Notes under the pieces: generated by a model
The model's database searches: none
What the model saw: only the letters and a program-made list of their open reading frames with translations
What the model was told of the DNA's origin: nothing
Virus record (IMG/VR): IMGVR_UViG_3300035210_000069
Location: 1-40,927 of that record
Strand: one strand, 5' to 3'
DNA: 40,927 bases
Source of the DNA: a virus
Program-made: the position numbers and the translations under genes
Shown: in pieces, positions 381 through 28,167 of the stretch
How the letters are laid out: the number at the start of each line of letters is the position of its first letter
How positions within the stretch are numbered: the stretch's first letter is position 1

Positions 381-3300
381 TTATCCCGTAGCCGTCAAAG
401 ATATATCGTCTGCTATAATCACGTTTGATACTACTTCCTTGTCTATCAAGGTTTTTGTTATTGTATGTTTTCTCTTTACTCCATCTATCGTAGAAAACAA
501 ATATCCCGAATATGTAGGACCGGTAGCTGTTCCGTATTGGCTTACTCGTTGATTTATTATATATGTTAATCCTCCGACCCCTCCTGCAATCTTTTGTGGT
601 ATAGGAGATATCATCACCGTAATTACTGAAGAAAACAATCCAGAATGAGATGCACTCAATTCTCGAAATGCGATTCCCACTTTTATTCCCTTGCTATCTA
701 TAAATGCGTAAGAATACCATACATTTGTGGTCGGTCCGGGTCCGGAAAAGAATGAATCTCTTACTATCGACGAATGGGGCATCCCGGTTATTCCTGTACA
801 TACGTCGGTTGAATCCTGAACGAACCCACTTGTCGTTCCAAGAACACCACTATACGTTCCAAATGGTCCCCCTGCGATAACCACCATAAAGTCAGTTTGG
901 AATGAATTTGACGCTGCATGAATAGTATCAATGCAGGTGAATGGGATATCTGCGATAAGAATACTCCAAGTCGTTCCTCCGTCAAACGACTGAATAATAC
1001 CCGTGAGTGAAGCGACAAATATCTTATCTCCGCCTCCAGTCGTAGATGGAATTACCGATATCGAATTCCATTTTTTAGTATATCCCGTATCACACTCGAT
1101 CCATGTTGCTCCATCGTCAGAAGATTTAAGGACTACTCCTTCCGAAGAACACGCATATACCGATGATATCCCGTGATCTATGCCTGTGAATGTGTATGAT
1201 CTTATCTTCCGTACCCACGCATTGTTTGTGTATGTAAATGTCTGAATAGATGCAATATTTGTACTGTTCGCACAATGTACCGTGGACCCATCACCCGACA
1301 CAACCGAATTCCAAATTCCTGCGTCGAGAGAGTTCCATCCAAAGGTATATCCATAGTCGATTGATATATAAATCCCGGAACTGGTTCCTGCTGCGATAAC
1401 TTTCCCGTCATCAGAAATAGAAACATTTTCCCATAACGCTGACGCTGATCCTGAATGCCATGACGTCCCGCCATCCTTTGTTGAATATATCGATCCTCCA
1501 TAGTCAGCGCACGAAACGCTTAACCCATCAGAAGAACACGCAATTCCTATCCACTTACGGGAGCCTGCACCAGAAGATATTGCCCAAGTCAATCCCCCAT
1601 CCGTTGATTTAAATATCCCTCCTCCATCGGTACACGCCCAAAGGATTTTTCCGTCGATTGATGTACAGATATCCGTCCAGGCCTTTGTGGTCCCGATTGA
1701 GTTTATTCTTCCGACTTTACCATTGGCGACGAATACGGTTGATGACCCTCCGTATGCGGGAAGTAACGATGCAATGACTCCCGTGGGAACCAGCTTCCAT
1801 TCTCCAGATATTTTTTCGTATACCGTTCCTTGTTCTTGGGTAACGAGTATTTTCTTTCCATCTTTTGATACTGCGCAAGCCCACCATGCTTCTGTGTTTC
1901 CGGAAGTTATATCCTGTTTATCCCATGAATTTCCTGAGTCCTGGGAAACATATACTCCATTCCCATCGGTAACGACACAATGAACAATCCCATCTATGGT
2001 CGTAGTCACGTTATTTGCTGAAGATGATAAGTATACTGCCTTCCCCACATTTATGTTCACCACAACCGGAGTTGTTCCTTCTGTTATCCGATATATCCCA
2101 TTGGTGTATGATGAGATCACTACTCCAGTAGCAAAACGTCTTATTCCCGTAGCTGAAGGGAATTTCATCGAGTTTATGATAACTCCCGTTGCATCTATGA
2201 TATAAGGATAAGATCCTCCGGTCACAAGGATACTCGATAATGATCTTGTAGCCTCAAGCGTTGTCCACGCAACAGACCCAATTGATGTCACCGAATAGAA
2301 TGTTGCGCCGGTGTCTGATGAAATATAGACGTATCCTGGAGAAATAACGACGGCGATCTTTGTTCCATCTTCAGAAACAACGACTCCTGGATAATTACCC
2401 GACCCAAGTCCGGGAAGGTCTGCCCATGTCGCATGAGGAGCGTCAGATGAAATCCGGCACTTCCCTGACGATACTGCGGCAACGACCACAAGTCCAGTAC
2501 TTGAACACGCTATCTTTGTCCACGTCCCGTTTCCTGATCCTGTCCTGTCAGAGAATGCCGTTCCAGAGTTTGTCGATTCAAATATGTGACCGCCGGCTAC
2601 TCCTGCGAATACCTTCGTCCCATCGCCGCTACAGCAGATTGCTCCCCAATCAAGCGCATTGGTAGCGGTGACGTATGCCCATGTAGCTCCGAAGTCTGTA
2701 GATTTATAGATCCGCGCTCCTGACACGGCTGCATACATCATGCTTCCATCATCTGATATCGCAATTCCAATTACCGTTCCTGTTGGTGGAGTGGTAGACG
2801 CGGCAAAGGTGAGTCCTTTATCCACGCTGAACTTTGTTGCAGCTCCAGACACTACGACATGGTTCCCATCGGCAGAACATGCGAGGACCGTGCCGGTAAC
2901 TCCGGAAACGGTTGTCCAGGTAACCATTTTATCTTTTGAATACTGAAAGACACCAGCAGTTAATCCAAATACTATTCCAGTATTCGAGTATGCGGCGAGA
3001 GACGGATTAACAGTAGATTTATTTGAAAACGTAATCCAAGTTGCTCCGGCGTCTACGGAATACTTATATACACCTTTTGACGTTACTCCGCCTATCTTTG
3101 CTCCATCTTCAGATATGCACACCGCCGACCAATCTTCGGTTCCGGCCGCGGTTCTTTCTGTCCACGTTGCCCCTGAATCGACGGAAGTCCATATTGACCC
3201 GTTGGCCACACACGCGACAAGGAGGGTTGCGATAGCGTTTCCTGCTACTCCCGACCAATTGAGCGTTCCGGGAGCCGTTATGTTTGAAAAGGTAACTCCC

Positions 3301-3812
3301 GCATTCGCGGACTTTTTTATGTACCCGCCATATTCAGCAGATACTATTTTTTGATTATCGGTAGAAACAACAAGTCCAATCCATTTTACTTGCCCGGGTC
3401 CAGTTATTGGAGTGATAGCGCCTGATCCGACGGGGCATATAAATGCTGCTCTTTGCATCATCGCCACAGGATCATATCCTGCGTCTGAGACAACGGTATA
3501 ATCCGGAGCGCTTCCTGAAATAGTTACTCTACCAAGTGGGTTTGAAATAGGATGAACTCTTGATTTGCCTTGATCGTTAAACCATCTCATTAACCAATCT
3601 TGATTGAACCTGAAAAATTCTACATCTCCACCACGGACCTCTTCGTCTGCGTCTCCATCGACGGGAATAGAATTGTCAAAATTGGTGTTTATTTGGTGGA
3701 TGTTTCCGCCCTCGATATACATATTCACCATATCGAGTATCTCGTATGGAGGATCGTTTTTCTCTCCGCCCGTATCGGTTATTTTGAAGTTGTTTATTAC
3801 GAGTTCTTTCAT
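381..3812 (-). CDS. Large tail protein with about 15 Asp-box (BNR/sortilin-like) repeats
   Basis: The 1143-residue protein has a tail-hub-like N-terminus (about 1-110) and then a long array of Asp-box motifs of the form S-x-D-x-G-x-T-W/F. They fall near residues 168, 209, 251, 291, 328, 370, 412, 454, 498, 623, 735, 777, 817, 897 and 942, spaced about 40 residues apart. Motifs such as SGxIYxSxDxG mark successive beta-propeller blades. Such folds (sialidases, sortilins, photosystem assembly factors) bind glycans or proteins, so a host-surface-binding or hub role is inferred. The start overlaps the preceding stop by ATGA. Its repeat content links it to the two next genes in the operon. A sialidase activity is not claimed, because no catalytic residues were assigned. 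Confidence 0.8.
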   Translation of the reverse strand: MKELVINNFKITDTGGEKNDPPYEILDMVNMYIEGGNIHQINTNFDNSIPVDGDADEEVRGGDVEFFRFNQDWLMRWFNDQGKSRVHPISNPLGRVTISGSAPDYTVVSDAGYDPVAMMQRAAFICPVGSGAITPITGPGQVKWIGLVVSTDNQKIVSAEYGGYIKKSANAGVTFSNITAPGTLNWSGVAGNAIATLLVACVANGSIWTSVDSGATWTERTAAGTEDWSAVCISEDGAKIGGVTSKGVYKYSVDAGATWITFSNKSTVNPSLAAYSNTGIVFGLTAGVFQYSKDKMVTWTTVSGVTGTVLACSADGNHVVVSGAATKFSVDKGLTFAASTTPPTGTVIGIAISDDGSMMYAAVSGARIYKSTDFGATWAYVTATNALDWGAICCSGDGTKVFAGVAGGHIFESTNSGTAFSDRTGSGNGTWTKIACSSTGLVVVAAVSSGKCRISSDAPHATWADLPGLGSGNYPGVVVSEDGTKIAVVISPGYVYISSDTGATFYSVTSIGSVAWTTLEATRSLSSILVTGGSYPYIIDATGVIINSMKFPSATGIRRFATGVVISSYTNGIYRITEGTTPVVVNINVGKAVYLSSSANNVTTTIDGIVHCVVTDGNGVYVSQDSGNSWDKQDITSGNTEAWWACAVSKDGKKILVTQEQGTVYEKISGEWKLVPTGVIASLLPAYGGSSTVFVANGKVGRINSIGTTKAWTDICTSIDGKILWACTDGGGIFKSTDGGLTWAISSGAGSRKWIGIACSSDGLSVSCADYGGSIYSTKDGGTSWHSGSASALWENVSISDDGKVIAAGTSSGIYISIDYGYTFGWNSLDAGIWNSVVSGDGSTVHCANSTNIASIQTFTYTNNAWVRKIRSYTFTGIDHGISSVYACSSEGVVLKSSDDGATWIECDTGYTKKWNSISVIPSTTGGGDKIFVASLTGIIQSFDGGTTWSILIADIPFTCIDTIHAASNSFQTDFMVVIAGGPFGTYSGVLGTTSGFVQDSTDVCTGITGMPHSSIVRDSFFSGPGPTTNVWYSYAFIDSKGIKVGIAFRELSASHSGLFSSVITVMISPIPQKIAGGVGGLTYIINQRVSQYGTATGPTYSGYLFSTIDGVKRKHTITKTLIDKEVVSNVIIADDISLTATG

Positions 3813-7842: not shown

Positions 7843-8568
7843 TTATTCCTGTCGAGGTCTCTTTTGTAATGTCGCAGCGATTTCTTTTTCAAATCGAGCA
7901 TCATCCCAATTGTCAGGATCATCGTCTGCCGAAGTAGACTTCGTCGCAAATTTTGACCCACTTGGAAGAGTTGGCCTGTTCAGGTTTTTAATCGTTTTAT
8001 CTACGATCTCGCTTTCCTTGTTATTTGCCGATTGCATAGTTTTCTCCTTGAGCGCTTGTCTCCATTCAGGATGCAATGATCCGAGAAGATAAGCCGCCTC
8101 GGCGGGATGTTTGTTTCCCATCACGGTATCAAAGACGTCCTGACCATTATCGTATCCAAGTTTTCGGGCAAGATCATCATTTTTGAAGATCTTGTCGGCG
8201 AACTTGAATACTTCGTCATAGTCTTCGTGGTCACGCCTTGCCCTTTCCTCACTCCGTTCGATCCTAAAGATTGCGTTCTCTTTCTGGATCGGACTTAATG
8301 CTTGTTCGAGATATCCCTGCAACTTGTCTTCGGTGATATAGTTGTTTGGATCAGGGTTGTCGAACAGAGGCTTCGGTTTAGCGCCACGCTGTTCTTTGAG
8401 TTGCCGCACCGTGAGCATCCCTTCAAGGTTCGAGATCTTGTCTGCATACTTTTCGTCTAATGCCCTCAATAATTCATTGGGGTCTTGTGTTCCTTCTTCT
8501 TGTACTGGCTCGGATTGAGGGGTTTCAACCACCTCTTCTTCGAGTCCTTGGGTTACATCGTCTTCCAT
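7843..8568 (-). CDS. Capsid scaffold/assembly protein candidate
   Basis: The 241-residue protein is acidic and mostly helical. It has a glutamate- and proline-rich N-terminus (EEEVVETPQSEPVQEEG) and a coiled-coil centre ending in a charged segment. It has no recognised catalytic motif. The position between portal and major capsid genes, the size and the composition match phage scaffolding proteins. AAGGAG within the end of the portal gene serves as its ribosome site. Confidence 0.7.
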   Translation of the reverse strand: MEDDVTQGLEEEVVETPQSEPVQEEGTQDPNELLRALDEKYADKISNLEGMLTVRQLKEQRGAKPKPLFDNPDPNNYITEDKLQGYLEQALSPIQKENAIFRIERSEERARRDHEDYDEVFKFADKIFKNDDLARKLGYDNGQDVFDTVMGNKHPAEAAYLLGSLHPEWRQALKEKTMQSANNKESEIVDKTIKNLNRPTLPSGSKFATKSTSADDDPDNWDDARFEKEIAATLQKRPRQE

Positions 8569-8571
8569 GTG

Positions 8572-10446
8572 TTATACTCCTTCAGGCGGCATCCCGCCCA
8601 TTTGAGATTCTGGTAGTGGTTGCTCCATCGGCATTACCGGTGGCATCCCTGATTGATCCGGAGGAGGCACTCCTTGATCCGGTGGTGGTCCCGCGTCATG
8701 CGGTGGTCCCTGTGGAGGGGCAGGAGCTGGAGGTGGCGGTGGGTTCGTTAGTTGTTTTATCTGCATTTCAGTTTGCAGAATCGCTAACTCCAATTGCTTT
8801 TCCTTTAATACCCTCTGTAGTTCCAGAGGTTTTTTCGCCAGCACTTTCGATTCCTCAGGTATTGGAGAAAAGTCTATAATTATTGAAGGATCGATGGGAA
8901 TCGTTTTTGACATCTCAAGAAGCTGTGTCATCATCCCTATCCGGTACGACGGAGAATCGGTTATTTCATCTATGACGATATCCATCTCGATGTTTTCTTT
9001 GTCGTCTTCCCATGTTGGAGGAAGAGGTCGACCAAGTATTCTCTCGAACTTTACCCTGGACCAGTTGGTATCGATCATCTTCAGGATAATACCCGCGATA
9101 ATTCTCTTCGCAAAGCTCATGTTCTGCGGGAAGTCCTGTATGGAAAGGATTCCTTGATCCCTTCTCATCTGAACGTTCATCCCTGGTTCAGACTTCGCCT
9201 GCATTATTCCAAGAAGGTCAGGAGATATGGAAACATTATCCATGGCATCTCCTGCGATACGATATAGTTCCGTGGTAGCAGAATTCAATTGAACAGGTTG
9301 CAGTTCTCTCCACATCCCCATCTGTCCCTTGTTTACGTGGATGCTGGTAACACCACCCTTTGAATTGGTCATTTCCCGTTCATCAACAAATGTTCCCTCC
9401 TCAGATATCACCCCTGCAATGGGTAGACGCTTAACCGCATCAACGGTCGTGGAGTGCATGAAGTTTACTTCCGATTGAAGATCAAAAATATCGTGAGGGA
9501 TTCCGTGGAGTTTTTTTGCCCAGTCTGATCCGGTGGGCGTATACCATCCGAATATAGGCACAATCTTAAAGTCGGTAACTCCATCAGGGTCTTCCGCATC
9601 CACAAGGACGATTGTGTCATTTGCGGTTACGCATACTTTTACGACACATACCGATCGGGTTATTGATTTGACTGAATCCCCTGACTCGTCTGTTTTTGCG
9701 GAAAGTTTTTTAAAGGTTGCGTCATCTCCTTTGAATTCTTTAAACTCTCCGTTAATAACAAAATATTTCTTTGTAATGAAGTCCTTATACCAGCGCTCCT
9801 TTACTTCCACCTTCTTCCCTTCGTAATTGATTTCATTGCCTGAATCATAGGATGGAGATCTTTCTTCAAGTTTGTCAATTTCTGCTGCCTTGTCAGGCCA
9901 TAGTGATTTCATTTCAGACTTTTCCATGAACGTCTGAGTCATTATGTCTCTTGCATCTGAAAGGTCAGGCTTCTGAGCAGTAGGATCAAAGAGCGTGTTC
10001 ATGGGATTCACCCATCTCACATGAATGTCTCCGTAGACAGGATCACGGTCAAGCGATAAGTCTATTCGTACAAAACCTATTCCACCGATTACCTGGTCTT
10101 TCCCTGCCATTGGGATATAATACTGGTTCATATTGTGTGTGAACACATACTTCATTATCTCGGTATAAATGTCGGCGTATGTCTGATCGTTCTTCTCTTG
10201 CGCAAGAAAACGAGGAACCGTATTATTCTGGGAGTACATCCCTGAAATTACATCACATCGTTTCTTGGAAAGGTTGATGTTTATCTGAGCACGTCCTTCG
10301 AGGGCGTCTTTTTCGGCAGGGGTGAAGGCGTCTGAAAAGTAATTAAGGTACGCACGTTTCCGATCTTTGATGCTGGTTCCCCAGGACCCTGTCATTTCAG
10401 AGAATCTTGACTTATTCAGTTCACATAGTTTCGTATCATCACTCAT
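8572..10446 (-). CDS. Portal protein, P22 gp1-like
   Basis: The 624-residue protein should form the dodecameric DNA gate. I chose the ATG at 10446 (MSDDTKLCEL) because it overlaps the terminase stop as ATGA; longer readings would run far into the terminase gene. The N-terminal third contains SFTPAEK-like helices and KKRCDVISGMYSQNN, followed by RFLAQEKNDQTYADIYTEI. The central region has PIFGWYTPTG and DLQSEVNFMHST, all typical of P22-type portals. The last 70 residues are strikingly rich in proline, glycine and methionine and probably flexible. It sits between terminase and scaffold genes. Confidence 0.88.
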   Translation of the reverse strand: MSDDTKLCELNKSRFSEMTGSWGTSIKDRKRAYLNYFSDAFTPAEKDALEGRAQININLSKKRCDVISGMYSQNNTVPRFLAQEKNDQTYADIYTEIMKYVFTHNMNQYYIPMAGKDQVIGGIGFVRIDLSLDRDPVYGDIHVRWVNPMNTLFDPTAQKPDLSDARDIMTQTFMEKSEMKSLWPDKAAEIDKLEERSPSYDSGNEINYEGKKVEVKERWYKDFITKKYFVINGEFKEFKGDDATFKKLSAKTDESGDSVKSITRSVCVVKVCVTANDTIVLVDAEDPDGVTDFKIVPIFGWYTPTGSDWAKKLHGIPHDIFDLQSEVNFMHSTTVDAVKRLPIAGVISEEGTFVDEREMTNSKGGVTSIHVNKGQMGMWRELQPVQLNSATTELYRIAGDAMDNVSISPDLLGIMQAKSEPGMNVQMRRDQGILSIQDFPQNMSFAKRIIAGIILKMIDTNWSRVKFERILGRPLPPTWEDDKENIEMDIVIDEITDSPSYRIGMMTQLLEMSKTIPIDPSIIIDFSPIPEESKVLAKKPLELQRVLKEKQLELAILQTEMQIKQLTNPPPPPAPAPPQGPPHDAGPPPDQGVPPPDQSGMPPVMPMEQPLPESQMGGMPPEGV

Positions 10447-18160: not shown

Positions 18161-19411
18161 CTAAACCCCATACCCCGATGCCGGAACATTCCCATTACCG
18201 ACATAAACATTCCCGACTTGATATCGCCCTTTGTTCAGCATGATCTTACCTTTCCCTGCGGCCTCTGACCTCATCTTTGCCTTTGTCAGCCAACTCGATC
18301 CGTCTTCATCAGACCATAGGAAAACAACGTTGTTAGCATCCTGTTCTAAAGAACCAGAATCTTTAAGATCTGAAAGAATAGGCTCCTTGCTCGATCTTGA
18401 CTCTACCATCCGATTCAACTGAGCAACCCCGATAACCGGTATTGATAATCTTCCCGCCATCCTCTTCAAGGATCTTGATATGTCACCTACCCTCTCGGCC
18501 TTTGTATCTCCGTTTCCATCAAATAGCTGGACATAATCAAGTATCACTATACCTGGTTTTCTTTTTTTTGCAAGCTCTTTTACTTTTTGAATCACAGAAT
18601 CTACGTGACTCGTGATATCGTCCACATAATACAACCCCTTCCACCGGTCTTTAAGGCTATCGAAGGTATCGCACACAAGCTGATCTTCTTCAGGAGTCAT
18701 CGTCCGATCTCTTATCTTATTAAACTCAACCCCGGTTATTCTTGTGAGGTTTCGGTAATAGATGTGCCGCTTGCTCACCTCAAGGGAAAAATGAAAAACT
18801 GGAACCTTGTAATTATCCATAACATGGGCGGCGATCGCACAAGCAACGGTTGTCTTCCCTTCCCCTGGCCTTGCAGCAATCAAGGTAAGTTCCGTTTCCC
18901 ACAGATTAAACTTTTCACAAGAGATATCTATACCTGAATAAAATTTATTCTCAGGCTTTGCATCGTGTAAACTCTTCTCTTCTCCGATATCACATATTTG
19001 TGTCGGAGATGAAAACTTTGAGATATCGACATCTGCCTTTTCGAGAATATGCTCTATCGGATCGGTAGATGATACAAGATACTTTCCAAGCTCTTTAAGA
19101 TCATCCCTTATTGCCGACTCCTTCAGCTTCTCGATAAGTATCGGAACAGGAGCGTAATCGGAGCACTTCGCAGCGATAAGGAACGTCTCAGTCACACAAT
19201 TTTGGTCTTCTCCCATTGCCATTATCTGAGCTTGCACGGTGGTAATATTTATCGGATGGCACGATTCATACAGAGTTTTTATCGCCGCATGAATTATCTT
19301 TGAGTTTTTAGTGGTGAAATACTTGTCGTCCAACTCCGCGACATCACGAGAATAATCTTTTGAGAATATTGCGCCACCGAGTATCAGATCTGTAATATTT
19401 TTATTTACCAT
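18161..19411 (-). CDS. dnaB: Replicative DNA helicase, DnaB type
   Basis: The 416-residue protein unwinds DNA at the phage fork. The N-terminal domain (about 1-110) matches the DnaB N-domain that contacts primase. The RecA-like motor has Walker A RPGEGKTT (181-188), Walker B IVILDYVQL (288-296), the glutamine switch VAQLNR and the motif SDLKDSGSLEQDANNV. The last 15 residues are glycine-rich. It overlaps the upstream small gene by 11 bases. No primase domain is fused and no loader is evident, so host primase and loader may be used. Confidence 0.93.
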   Translation of the reverse strand: MVNKNITDLILGGAIFSKDYSRDVAELDDKYFTTKNSKIIHAAIKTLYESCHPINITTVQAQIMAMGEDQNCVTETFLIAAKCSDYAPVPILIEKLKESAIRDDLKELGKYLVSSTDPIEHILEKADVDISKFSSPTQICDIGEEKSLHDAKPENKFYSGIDISCEKFNLWETELTLIAARPGEGKTTVACAIAAHVMDNYKVPVFHFSLEVSKRHIYYRNLTRITGVEFNKIRDRTMTPEEDQLVCDTFDSLKDRWKGLYYVDDITSHVDSVIQKVKELAKKRKPGIVILDYVQLFDGNGDTKAERVGDISRSLKRMAGRLSIPVIGVAQLNRMVESRSSKEPILSDLKDSGSLEQDANNVVFLWSDEDGSSWLTKAKMRSEAAGKGKIMLNKGRYQVGNVYVGNGNVPASGYGV

Positions 19412-19619: not shown

Positions 19620-19656
19620 ATTATTCCTCCATTCGCCTATTATTGCGAAGTTACTT

Positions 19657-19676
19657 CGCTTATGAGGTGTTAGTCG
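19657..19676 (-). repeat. attC-like half-site at the downstream end of the cassette array
   Basis: Read in gene direction, CGACTAACACCTCATAAGCG starts with a GACTAAC core that contains the TAA stop of the preceding gene. It then has a spacer ACCTC and the start of an L box. The core is the exact 10-bp inverted partner of GTGTTAGTCG before the same gene. The site then runs into a leader sequence shared with the initiator gene, so it looks truncated. A GCGAAG-TAA-CTTCGC hairpin follows. Confidence 0.45.
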
Positions 19677-19936
19677 TAATTATTTGCCGCTCTTTCCTTT
19701 ACATAAAAATCAGCCATTTCTCCCATCTGATTAACTATAGCTTCTTCATCAATTTTTACTCCAAGCTCATACTTTTGTTTTAATTTTAAACATTTTTTGC
19801 ACGTAACCATTTGCCATTCTTCTACAGCATTCATACATGGTTCTTCACCGGTACATCCACATAGAGTTTCTTCGCATGTTGATAACGGGTGTTCGTAATC
19901 ACCCTCATCTATGATTATTCCAAAATGTACTTTCAT
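19670..19936 (-). CDS. Cysteine-rich small protein, cassette-like gene A
   Basis: The product is 88 residues from the ATG at 19936, which follows GGAGG at good spacing. It starts MKVHFGIIIDEGDYEH and has two cysteine groups, CEETLCGCTGEEPC and TCKKC, compatible with a zinc site. A helical C-terminus follows. Its stop codon lies inside a GACTAAC core and the exact inverted copy stands upstream of its start, the arrangement of an integron gene cassette. Function unknown. Confidence 0.7.
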   Translation of the reverse strand: MKVHFGIIIDEGDYEHPLSTCEETLCGCTGEEPCMNAVEEWQMVTCKKCLKLKQKYELGVKIDEEAIVNQMGEMADFYVKERAANNYD

Positions 19937-19966
19937 GAGTCCTCCTATGATATCGGCGAATAACAA

Positions 19967-20021
19967 CGACTAACACTCGCTAACCGCCATAGTAACAGCG
20001 TCTAGCTCATAAGTTGTACGC
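19967..20021 (-). repeat. attC-like imperfect palindrome between genes B and A
   Basis: In gene direction this 55-bp element reads GCGTACAAC, spacer TTATGA, arm GCTAGACGC, a 10-base loop, arm GCGGTTAGC, spacer GAGT, then GTGTTAGTCG. The arms pair at 8 of 9 positions with one bulged mismatch, and outer AAC pairs with GTT. This matches the R''-L''-loop-L'-R' order and size of integron attC sites. The cores GTACAAC and GTTAGTC each differ from RYYYAAC/GTTRRRY by one base. Confidence 0.55.
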
Positions 20022-20037
20022 AATTTTTGAGCGCGCT

Positions 20038-20259
20038 TTACAATGCCTCTAATCTTATTTTCAAACTTTCAATCATTTTGCTATATTCTTTTATTGCTAT
20101 CTCCCACATACATTTTGATATAGTACAATCAATACTCATCGTTGCTAACTCTACACATCTTTGTTCTTTCAGTAAAAATGTTATTTCTGATTTTGTCCTT
20201 TCGCACCTTTCAATCATTTCTTTGATTCTGGTTGCTTCTCTTAGCGTTTCTTCTTTCAT
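20038..20259 (-). CDS. Small coiled-coil protein, cassette-like gene B
   Basis: The 73-residue, almost wholly helical and charged product (MKEETLREATRIKEMIERC...) probably forms a coiled coil. Three cysteines are spread along it. AAGGAGATGAAGC precedes the ATG. In gene direction it is preceded by GTTGTGCGC and followed by GCGTACAAC, which are complementary at 8 of 9 positions, as expected for the two ends of one cassette. No family is recognised. Confidence 0.65.
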   Translation of the reverse strand: MKEETLREATRIKEMIERCERTKSEITFLLKEQRCVELATMSIDCTISKCMWEIAIKEYSKMIESLKIRLEAL

Positions 20260-20300
20260 GCTTCATCTCCTTTATTATTATTCTCGACCGTCCGAAACCA

Positions 20301-20358
20301 GCGCACAACACCGCATAGACAAAATGGCTACACATCGTTTAGCTCATAAGTTAATTGC
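20301..20358 (-). repeat. attC-like imperfect palindrome between genes C and B
   Basis: In gene direction this 58-bp element reads GCAATTAAC, spacer TTATGA, arm starting GCTA, a variable centre, arm ending TATGC, spacer GGT, then GTTGTGCGC. It shares AACTTATGAGCTA with the next element (13 identical bases). The inner stem GCTA-a-AC/GT-c-TA-t-GC contains single unpaired bases, a normal attC trait. The rest of the 114-base gap holds only the ribosome site of the next gene. Confidence 0.5.
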
Positions 20359-20373
20359 AATTCAAAGAGCAAA

Positions 20374-20556
20374 CTATTGGTTTTTCTTGGGCTTCTTGCT
20401 CATCTGGTTATAATATTTCATAAAACACTTCATACTGCAAAAATCTATATTGCCCGTGAAAGAAAAATTACGGATTTTATAACCTCTCAAAAAAAGATAT
20501 TAGTGCTTTTCTTCATTAATTATTTTTCTGCATTCGTCACAAGCCTGTCGTTGCAT
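20374..20556 (-). pseudogene. Zinc-finger gene interrupted by an in-frame TAA, cassette-like gene C
   Basis: From the ATG at 20556 (AAAGGATAAATAT upstream) the frame reads MQRQACDECRKIINEEKH, then TAA. It continues in the same frame as YLFLRGYKIRNFSF ... DFCSMKCFMKYYN to a TAG at 20374. The CDEC before the stop and FCSMKC after it together form a four-cysteine zinc site, so the frame looks like one protein of about 60 residues broken by a nonsense codon (probably an ancestral Tyr). Programmed read-through or two mini-peptides are alternatives. A GTTAAGTGC/GCAATTAAC pair flanks it. Confidence 0.6.
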
Positions 20557-20591
20557 ATATTTATCCTTTTGCTTTTATCGCTCTTTGAACA

Positions 20592-20610
20592 GCACTTAAC
20601 AGCGGCTATG
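20592..20610 (-). repeat. attC-like half-site at the upstream end of the cassette array
   Basis: In gene direction CATAGC, spacer CGCT, then GTTAAGTGC parallels the L'-spacer-R' ends of the two complete elements (TAGC-GAGT-GTT and ATGC-GGT-GTT). GTTAAGT fits GTTRRRY exactly and is complementary at 8 of 9 positions to GCAATTAAC after gene C. The stop codon of the replication initiator lies inside the CATAGC arm. Confidence 0.45.
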
Positions 20611-21931
20611 CTCTTAAATTTATCTTCTCATCGAAGATCTTCTTCTTATCTTCTGCCGTTCCATATTTATACTTATCTGCCTCTTCCTGAGTCATCCCCC
20701 CAAATTTTACCATCAACTTATCAAGAGCATAGCAGAAGTGGTTCGGGCTGAAGGTGAACTTGTCGTACCCTTGTTCCCGCTTCGCCACTTGTTTATGAAA
20801 ATATTTAACCACATCCTTTAAAAATTCCAGCTTCCCGGAGAATGTAACGGCGATACGGGTGAACGCTTTTCCGTTAACTTTAAAGTCCAAAGGGATGTGA
20901 TTCATCGCCTCATACCCAAATCCAAAAGTCTCCCTTGCATAGTCCCAAATCTCTTTCTGCTCCGGAGTGAGCTTTTTGACCTTTGAAGTCTTTTGTACGA
21001 TGCCATTAGGCTTGCGGAGAGGCCTCTCCTTGCCATCCGGAACGCTTTTTCCAATACTTATATCGCCTCGGCTCTTGGATGCCTGTTTTTCATGTTTTCG
21101 CAAGAGTTCAGATCCGGTGATTATTTTACCGTTATCCACAAAGTTATCCACATTCTTCGCAATGGGGGAAATTATGTTCTCCCCTTTTCCCTTAGCGATA
21201 AAAACATCAAGTCCGGTAGCCTCTCTCAAAAATCTGTCTTTCATTATTTTCGCTTGCTCGGCCGATATTGGACCCAGCAAGTCTTCGAGTTCGGATGTCA
21301 ACTTGGAAGGCCATATTTTTTTTGCCTCCTCTTTCGTCATCCAAACAACATTTGAATCGGCGGGGGAACCGCCCGAAATGGAGGGGGTCTTAATTGGCTC
21401 CGGGGAAGGTTGTTTAGAGACTGAATCTTTCTCATCGTCCGTACGAGATTCTGTATTTTCAGAATTGAGTCCCATATCTTTAATGTCTGTGTCTGTGTCT
21501 GTGTCTGGCACTATTTGTCCCAGATTGTCTGTGACAGATTGCAATGGAGCATATTCTGGCAATAAAAGTAGACTTTTTTTATAATTTTGTATAAGAATAC
21601 GAAGTTTTTCTGATCTTGTGGCACTCATTTCAAGATCCCGATATATAGCAGCACAGGTAATCCTTCCGGTGGTTTCGCTCAATTCAAACATCCCTTGATT
21701 TATCATAAACGCAGCGATCTCTCCGATCTCAGTACTGTTCTCTTTATAAAAAGAAGCTATGTCTTCAACGGTCTCTTTAAGATCCGGGATGGGATCATCG
21801 TCGCATATAGTACTTACAATCGATTCAATCATAAGGCAATAAAGGCCATATCCTTTTATCCCGTATTTTGATATGAGTCTTCTTATTTTTGTGTCATGCC
21901 TTAAGTCGCTTTGGTGTTTAAAGTATTTCAT
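20606..21931 (-). CDS. Replication initiator, Lin1244/Lin1753 (DUF4373) N-terminal domain
   Basis: The 441-residue protein begins KYFKHQSDLRHDTKIRRLISKYGIKGYGLYCLMIESI. This is the winged-helix-like opening of DUF4373/Lin1244 proteins found beside phage helicases. The middle (about 145-300) is low-complexity, acidic and variable, and includes DTDTDTD encoded by four tandem TGTCTG-type hexamers. The C-terminus holds a further helical domain. The place upstream of dnaB supports an initiator or helicase-loader role. AAGGATAATT precedes the start. The C-terminus abuts an attC-like half-site, so its last residues may have been altered by insertion. Confidence 0.7.
   Translation of the reverse strand: MKYFKHQSDLRHDTKIRRLISKYGIKGYGLYCLMIESIVSTICDDDPIPDLKETVEDIASFYKENSTEIGEIAAFMINQGMFELSETTGRITCAAIYRDLEMSATRSEKLRILIQNYKKSLLLLPEYAPLQSVTDNLGQIVPDTDTDTDIKDMGLNSENTESRTDDEKDSVSKQPSPEPIKTPSISGGSPADSNVVWMTKEEAKKIWPSKLTSELEDLLGPISAEQAKIMKDRFLREATGLDVFIAKGKGENIISPIAKNVDNFVDNGKIITGSELLRKHEKQASKSRGDISIGKSVPDGKERPLRKPNGIVQKTSKVKKLTPEQKEIWDYARETFGFGYEAMNHIPLDFKVNGKAFTRIAVTFSGKLEFLKDVVKYFHKQVAKREQGYDKFTFSPNHFCYALDKLMVKFGGMTQEEADKYKYGTAEDKKKIFDEKINLRA
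21484..21507. repeat. Four tandem 6-bp repeats in the initiator gene
   Basis: TGTCTG is repeated four times in a row. Because the unit is six bases, changes in copy number would add or remove Asp-Thr pairs without shifting the reading frame. Confidence 0.85.
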
Positions 21932-28094: not shown

Positions 28095-28167
28095 GGGACA
28101 GTAGTTCTAATGGGAGAGCGGCTGCTTTGCAAGCAGATGGTTGTGGGTTCGACTCCCACCTGTTCCA
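28095..28167 (+). tRNA. tRNA-Ala (anticodon UGC)
   Basis: The 73-base cloverleaf is complete. The acceptor stem GGGACAG/CTGTTCC includes the G3-U70 wobble pair that identifies alanine tRNA. It has a 4-bp D stem, the anticodon loop TTTGCAA with TGC at 34-36, and T arm GTGGG-TTCGACT-CCCAC. The first anticodon-stem pair is mismatched (G-A). The discriminator is A and no CCA end is encoded. It lies in the rightward early operon. Confidence 0.93.

Follow-up and report, generated by a model that had tools for sequence, protein, structure and literature searches.

A three-unit array of probable integron-like cassettes, with genes antisense to their attC-like sites, in a phage replication operon

The window, by which we mean the whole stretch of DNA that was analysed, is the 40,927-nt virus record IMGVR_UViG_3300035210_000069. 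Within it, a run of small genes lies between a replication initiator gene and a dnaB gene, and the order on the minus strand is initiator, unit A, unit B, unit C, gene 4 and dnaB. The genes that concern us are as follows.

20606..21931, minus strand: replication initiator with a Lin1244_N domain
20374..20556, minus strand: ORF A, zinc-ribbon-like MQRQACDECRKIINEEKH*YLFLRGYKIRNFSFTGNIDFCSMKCFMKYYNQMSKKPKKNQ*, broken by an in-frame TAA
20038..20259, minus strand: gene B, 73-aa predicted coiled-coil protein, ATG after AAGGAGA
19670..19936, minus strand: gene C, 88-aa Cys-rich protein, ATG after AGGAGG, homologous to phrog_30413
18161..19411, minus strand: DnaB-like helicase, downstream of the array

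The initial annotation of this DNA counted three small genes in the interval, and its Cys-rich gene (C) and coiled-coil gene (B) are both present, whereas its Zn-finger gene (ORF A) is interrupted. The in-frame TAA in this zinc-ribbon reading frame, at 20500-20502, may reflect a pseudogene, recoding or a sequencing error. A family search with gene B and gene 4 gave no confident match. Gene C has a homologue in Vibrio phage 1.201.B (41%) and others in two contigs, and a search for own-end pairing around the homologues in the Vibrio phage and the two contigs recognised no cassette context. The suggestion that the cargo derives from chromosomal integrons is not supported; gene C belongs to a phage gene family. 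In Vibrio phage 1.201.B (locus L098, 1928-3123), the gene C homologue lies among small genes that run opposite to the tail genes, and is itself flanked by a weak 27-nt inverted repeat. Elsewhere in the window there is a tRNA gene (28095-28167, plus strand).

On the plus strand, the array divides into three units, each of which opens with GTT and closes with AAC. The ends of each unit are complementary to each other and not to those of its neighbours. The class score given with each unit is described further below.

19669..19974, plus strand: cassette unit C; start GTTAGTCGTAATTATT against its own R'' 14/16, mismatches at 10-11; class score 30.4, the top of the genome
20013..20309, plus strand: cassette unit B; start GTTGTACGCAATTTTT against its own R'' 11/16; class score 19.7
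20350..20600, plus strand: cassette unit A; start GTTAATTGCAATTCAA against its own R'' 13/16, mismatches at 6, 10 and 11; class score 23.6

The central claim of the initial annotation, that these are cassette-like units in which each start is complementary to the unit's own core, is upheld by this end pairing, and the pairings it quoted were all located (GTGTTAGTCG with CGACTAACAC, 10/10; GTTGTGCGC with GCGTACAAC, 8/9; GTTAAGTGC with GCAATTAAC, 8/9). Complementarity extends beyond the cores, over 23 nt at 87% in unit C and 21 nt at 86% in unit A, and is poorer in unit B. Across the whole 41-kb record, the two top-ranking inverted repeats with 21-nt arms spaced 100-1200 nt apart are those of units C and A, each matching at 18/21, and the same search in four shuffled genomes reached a maximum of 17-18 of 21. 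Within the R box, the start agrees with its own R'' at 6-7 of 7 positions in all three units. The pattern GTTNNNNGYAATT, which was derived from these units, occurs exactly three times in the window, always at a unit start, where 0.79 occurrences are expected. Taken alone, a 9-nt core rule at 8/9 finds 7 linked pairs in the window where shuffles have 6.4, which is no excess; the rule is weak by itself, and the case for the units rests on the longer pairing together with the class signature. A stop codon does lie within a core, as had been noted: the TAA of gene C occupies 19670-19672 on the minus strand. A fourth unit start was sought at the right edge of the array and none was found.

The attC-like sites and the array edge, read on the plus strand, can be set out in the same way.

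19645..19669, plus strand: left array edge; hairpin GCGAAGTTACTTCGC (19645-19659), then TTATGAGGTG|TT; hairpin fold z = -2.2
19968..20019, plus strand: attC-like site C; R'' GACTAAC, spacer ACTC, arms GCTAACCGC / GCGTCTAGC, spacer TCATAA, R' GTTGTAC
20303..20356, plus strand: attC-like site B; R'' GCACAAC, spacer ACC, arms GC(a)TAGAC / GTTTAGC within CGTTTAGC, spacer TCATAA, R' GTTAATT
20594..20747, plus strand: attC-like site A; R'' ACTTAAC, spacer AGCG, arm GCTATGCTCTT (20605-20615), 107-nt loop
20723-20733, plus strand: far side of site A; arm AAGAGCATAGC, 11/11 bp, then spacer AGAAGTG and R' GTTCGGG

The linkers between the cores are 38 and 40 nt long and have a 31-nt repeat in common at 81%. 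They had been described as imperfect palindromes, a description that the folding check does not bear out, as all linkers fold like shuffles (z about 0). The lengths of spacer'' and spacer' are 4/6 in site C, 3/6 in site B and 4/7 in site A. As for the extra-helical L'' base, site B has one possible bulge and sites A and C have none; neither its standard place nor spacers of 5/6 are found here. The right-hand boundary of the array, previously called a half-site, looks instead like a full site of about 150 nt (20594-20747). Site A is the sole AAC-stem-GTT arrangement in the record with a stem of at least 9 bp, and in 60 shuffles such arrangements arise at 0.27 per genome at 9 bp and never at 11 bp. 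Its 11-bp arms are perfect yet partly coding, and those of sites B and C are imperfect. Site A extends over the 3' end of the initiator gene; the final 45 codons of that gene (20606-20743) fall inside the site and have the look of normal coding sequence. With its far arm in normal-looking coding sequence, site A fits badly with arrival in a cassette, and we have not reached a full reconciliation of the two. We keep an initiator ending in FSPNTS* as the predicted empty site, and as a prediction only, because this idea supposes that a cassette brought in site A, and the coding statistics of the tail disfavour that. The left edge is a putative insertion site on the attI-like side, with a crossover that would fall after G19669; we assign it this role by analogy with the first-position exchanges in Muminvirus that are described below.

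The polarity of these sites relative to the genes is the point on which our reading departs most from the initial annotation, which had assumed that attC polarity follows the sense strand. On the plus strand, an arm-and-spacer score places the linker of site C in the top 0.4% and that of site B in the top 2.5% of random stretches, as against 4.6% and 38% on the minus strand. The class score is likewise higher on the plus strand than on the minus strand for all three units (minus-strand values 25.2 for C, 14.5 for B and 18.2 for A). Read on the plus strand, each unit is followed by its own site, and read on the minus strand, there is none after unit C. We reject sense-strand polarity because of the scores and this absent site: attC polarity is that of the plus strand, antisense to the genes of the window. 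The antisense genes are B and C, both with ribosome-binding sites on the minus strand, and the remnant A, also on the minus strand. By the criterion of the longest open stretch alone, only unit C is clearly antisense, and in unit B the longest stretch lies on the attC strand (98 vs 74 aa).

As controls we used 80 integron-integrase loci together with known phage integrons, and built a covariance model from 44 attC sites. Among 53 adjacent control cassettes, the start agrees with its own R'' at an average of 6.5/7 positions, and the rule is confirmed in the integron loci and phage TJE1, over 34 distinct cassettes. In these 34 the match fades past about position 11, falling to 41% at position 12 and 15-24% beyond, and an A/G pair at position 11 occurs in none of them. 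The longer open stretch in the controls is sense relative to attC in 31 cases and antisense in 2. The attC covariance models R1 and R2 detect sites in integron loci and give the three TJE1 sites 20-23 bits. Within the array region they reach no more than about 3.7 bits and no junction stands out; typical attC sites, as the initial annotation would have had them, are not supported, and the best matches elsewhere in the window have E values of 2.7-6.5. This negative result, which the initial annotation had named as a refuting outcome, does not decide the matter, because the sensitivity of the models is limited: they miss most sites of Polaribacter phage P12002L and find one plausible site there. 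Integron integrases above the curated cut-off are present in 106/395 genomes of the phylum that includes a MAG titled Bacteroidales. In 20 loci of this Bacteroidales-labelled phylum, the cassettes have a spacer'' of 2-5 nt, their genes are mostly sense, and their ends pair as far as about position 10. This signature differs from that of the window, so we do not take the phage units for mere copies of such cassettes, and we reject the integron arrays of this phylum as their source.

Canonical integrons, both class 1 and chromosomal, have in common with the window the R''/R' rule, AAC...GTT cores, hairpin arms and the G|TT boundary, but differ in their sense genes, pairing of about 10 bp, extra L'' base and other spacer lengths. 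Complete integrons, unlike the window, carry an integrase gene. The CALIN of phage TJE1 (NC_019930) resembles the window in being a set of cassettes carried by a virulent phage that lacks an integrase, but has canonical attC sites found by the standard model and no extended pairing.

Phage cassette arrays were reported in 2023, including the CALIN of Polaribacter phage P12002L (NC_028924; Qi et al. 2023, PMC9892861). That study showed that IntI1 recombined one P12002L site in the laboratory and noted the 'divergent directions' of the P12002L attC sites; the signature described here was not found in it. On the plus strand, the P12002L units start with GTTNNNN[AG][CT]AA as in the window, have spacers of 2-3 and 5-6 nt, and carry their genes on the opposite strand. 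A blastn search with the P12002L region led to phage P12002S and to the Flavobacterium Muminviruses (mumin, mymlan, tooticki and filifjonk; PMC7077304), and both sets carry chains of units. What unites these units is a signature with four parts: end pairing of about 15 bp, a mismatch that is near-fixed at position 11, the start motif GTTNNNNRYAAT and antisense genes. In 30 distinct phage units, the start agrees with the unit's own end in 22-30/30 at most positions up to 15, but at position 11 in only 2/30, where the start has A in 29 and the end G in 24. The window units have this A/G at position 11 in 3/3 and the start motif GTTNNNNRYAAT in 3/3.

The class score was trained only on those 30 units from P12002L/S and Muminvirus, with the window left out, and it ranks the window units first, second and third genome-wide on the plus strand in the order C, A, B. 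Shuffled genomes give 0.125 matches of at least 20 per genome, with a maximum of 25.7, where what is counted is single matches and not three-unit chains. The signature was arrived at by inspection; the score is out of sample for the window sequences, but the idea of the class arose partly from comparing the window with P12002L, and the cleaner test is provided by the contigs L217 and L221. Across the first 112 loci and the window, linked chains were found only in the window, P12002L/S and the Muminviruses, and marginally in the integron-type loci L006 and L040; loci L113 and L115-L124 are too short for array analysis, and links listed there are noise. Among 80 TerL-related contigs (800 kb), the detector found four linked units in L217 (IMGVR_UViG_3300035561_000070, units 1526-3485, immediately upstream of the terminase gene) and one unit in L221 (IMGVR_UViG_3300048836_001233, unit 8422-9519, with a YaaC-like protein, PF14175, as cargo). 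The position-11 mismatch is present in 4/5 of these units, which lie on the strand opposite to their genes. The arm CGTTTAGC of window site B recurs in one L217 site, and after another L217 site comes GTTGTACGAAATT, which resembles the sequence that opens window unit B. The loop of one L217 site, CATTAAAACGA, also occurs in two P12002L sites.

Like the window, the P12002L CALIN combines the GTTNNNNRYAAT start, own-end pairing, a short spacer'', a 6-nt spacer' and antisense genes with no recognisable recombinase gene; unlike it, the P12002L array has DNA methyltransferase cargo, other arm sequences and probably another host. The Muminvirus arrays bear the same signature but are longer, with mostly longer sites (85-122 nt) whose arms include G-U wobble; an integron-like description of them is absent from the main text of PMC7077304. 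Comparison of the window with the proteins of P12002L and mymlan detected none in common. A Shine-Dalgarno-like motif precedes 13/18 genes of the window phage vs 1/19 in mymlan, and this difference, together with the lack of a common protein, indicates that the host of the window phage is probably of another kind.

Pairwise alignments of the Muminviruses contain three whole-unit differences between sister phages.

filifjonk vs mumin, first position: left flank identical over 1648 nt up to the G of G|TT; 7 nt ambiguity
filifjonk vs mumin, two units: left flank identical over 383 nt up to the G; 3 nt ambiguity
mumin vs tooticki, one unit: left flank identical over 1761 nt up to the G; 3 nt ambiguity

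The first-position insert carries a hairpin after its R'' on the plus strand, which fixes its polarity; for the inserted unit by which mumin and tooticki differ, its own R'' was sought and not recognised. Further whole-unit replacements are suggested by the alignments. The initial annotation had looked to sister phages for presence or absence of single units with breaks at G|TT, and such differences are borne out, to within 3-7 nt of ambiguity, in these Muminvirus sisters, which represent the same variety. Searches for a sister of the window phage with DnaB, the portal protein and the initiator tail found none, and a TerL search returned only distant relatives at about 28-42% identity, with no initiator match in 25 of them. 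Scans of IMG/VR for exact patterns (the linker, and the core plus linker) gave chance matches only, one of them in a portal gene. The units of the window may themselves be mobile, by analogy with Muminvirus.

The initial annotation saw no integrase gene, and there is no match to TIGR02249 or PF00589 in the record, which may be incomplete. A PF00589 search likewise found none in P12002L, the four Muminviruses, TJE1 and PH101. With no such gene recognisable in the window or in the genomes of P12002L and the Muminviruses, we infer an integrase acting in trans. The L221 record has a PF00589 gene at its edge, which is probably the phage's own integrase.

Several other readings have to be weighed against this evidence. 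Under the one favoured by the initial annotation, the units would be ordinary cassettes of host chromosomal integrons, with sense genes and standard attC sites. The own-start/own-R'' rule and the G|TT ends agree with it, as does the frequency of host integrons in at least one phylum. We nevertheless regard it as quite improbable: the canonical models remain at background although they give the TJE1 sites 20-23 bits, unit C has no following site on the sense strand, the position-11 mismatch and 15-bp pairing are absent from the 34 canonical cassettes, and gene C is a phage gene. It is unlikely, too, that the arrays are of the phage variety but swap their units by homologous recombination in co-infection, with the sites acting as short homologies and no dedicated recombinase. 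Such a process would leave the Muminvirus joints unaccounted for, where the left flanks are identical to the G, only 3-7 nt are common across the joint, and the events coincide with predicted unit ends; nor would it be expected to select for 15-bp pairing between the two ends of a unit. In its favour are the lack of a recombinase in these phages, the readiness with which phages recombine and the resemblance of sites within one phage.

The paired ends might alternatively be mRNA structures around each small cistron, controlling processing or translation in a phage operon. Pairing within units only is also what RNA folding would produce, and the genes are co-directional, but this reading leaves unexplained the constant GTT/AAC ends, the start motif common to unrelated phages and the presence or absence of whole Muminvirus units at G|TT, and we consider it very unlikely. 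Chance and transposon-like terminal repeats we hold to be very improbable. Single-unit matches do arise in shuffled sequence, but the top three plus-strand scores belong to three adjacent units, and one family of transposon repeats would have a common end sequence, whereas here the ends vary by unit.

We think it likely that the array is composed of three cassettes of a phage variety of integron-like cassette, moved by an integrase acting in trans. The initial annotation was half right: the cassette-like units are real, and their polarity and type need correction. On the plus strand, each unit consists of G|TTNNNNRYAAT, a gene on the opposite strand, and an R'' whose pairing with the start of the same unit covers ~15 bp and is broken at position 11; a hairpin, formed by arms with spacers of 3-4 and 6-7 nt, would follow, and then the next G|TT. 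The ends with their pairing and signature are demonstrated, and so are the recurrence of the variety in P12002L/S, the Muminviruses and two uncultivated viral contigs and the whole-unit differences of sister Muminviruses. For the movement itself, we propose that such units travel as single-stranded folded or circular intermediates and recombine site-specifically at G|TT through an integron-type tyrosine recombinase that the host or a co-resident element supplies in trans. In the window, units would have been added into the 3' end of the initiator gene, with C the last to arrive. As the genes face the phage operon, they would be transcribed with it and not from an integron promoter. Counting against this interpretation are the canonical models at background, the imperfect arms in sites B and C, the shuffle-like folding of the linkers, the position of site A's far arm in what looks like coding sequence, the weak unit B and the unrecognised R'' in the mumin-tooticki difference, as well as the fact that some shuffled genomes reach single scores above 20.

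What appears to be new is a reversed-gene signature common to phages without common proteins, together with natural unit-level differences. We also put forward, tentatively and as less likely than not, a broader hypothesis: that virulent phages possess their own cassette system apart from bacterial integrons, with antisense genes, in which strand choice is set not by the bulged bases of attC but by an A-C mismatch, near-fixed at position 11 in a stem of 15 bp, and which, moved by a recombinase still to be identified, carries DNA methyltransferases and small early genes from one unrelated phage to another. These arrays suggest that cassette exchange is one way in which genes flow between virulent phages, and the signature locates them where the attC model fails. 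The source of the recombinase in phages that have no such gene, and the reason for the reversed orientation of the cargo, also become testable.

For the Muminviruses, the paper on their isolation links absence of one methyltransferase, whose gene may or may not lie in a cassette, to poor plating on strain LMO6 (PMC7077304). The long Muminvirus arrays (L105, 1648-8109; L107, 1648-10102) consist of reversed-gene units carrying several DNA methyltransferases. Their first array position varies between sister phages and resembles a hot spot on the attI side.
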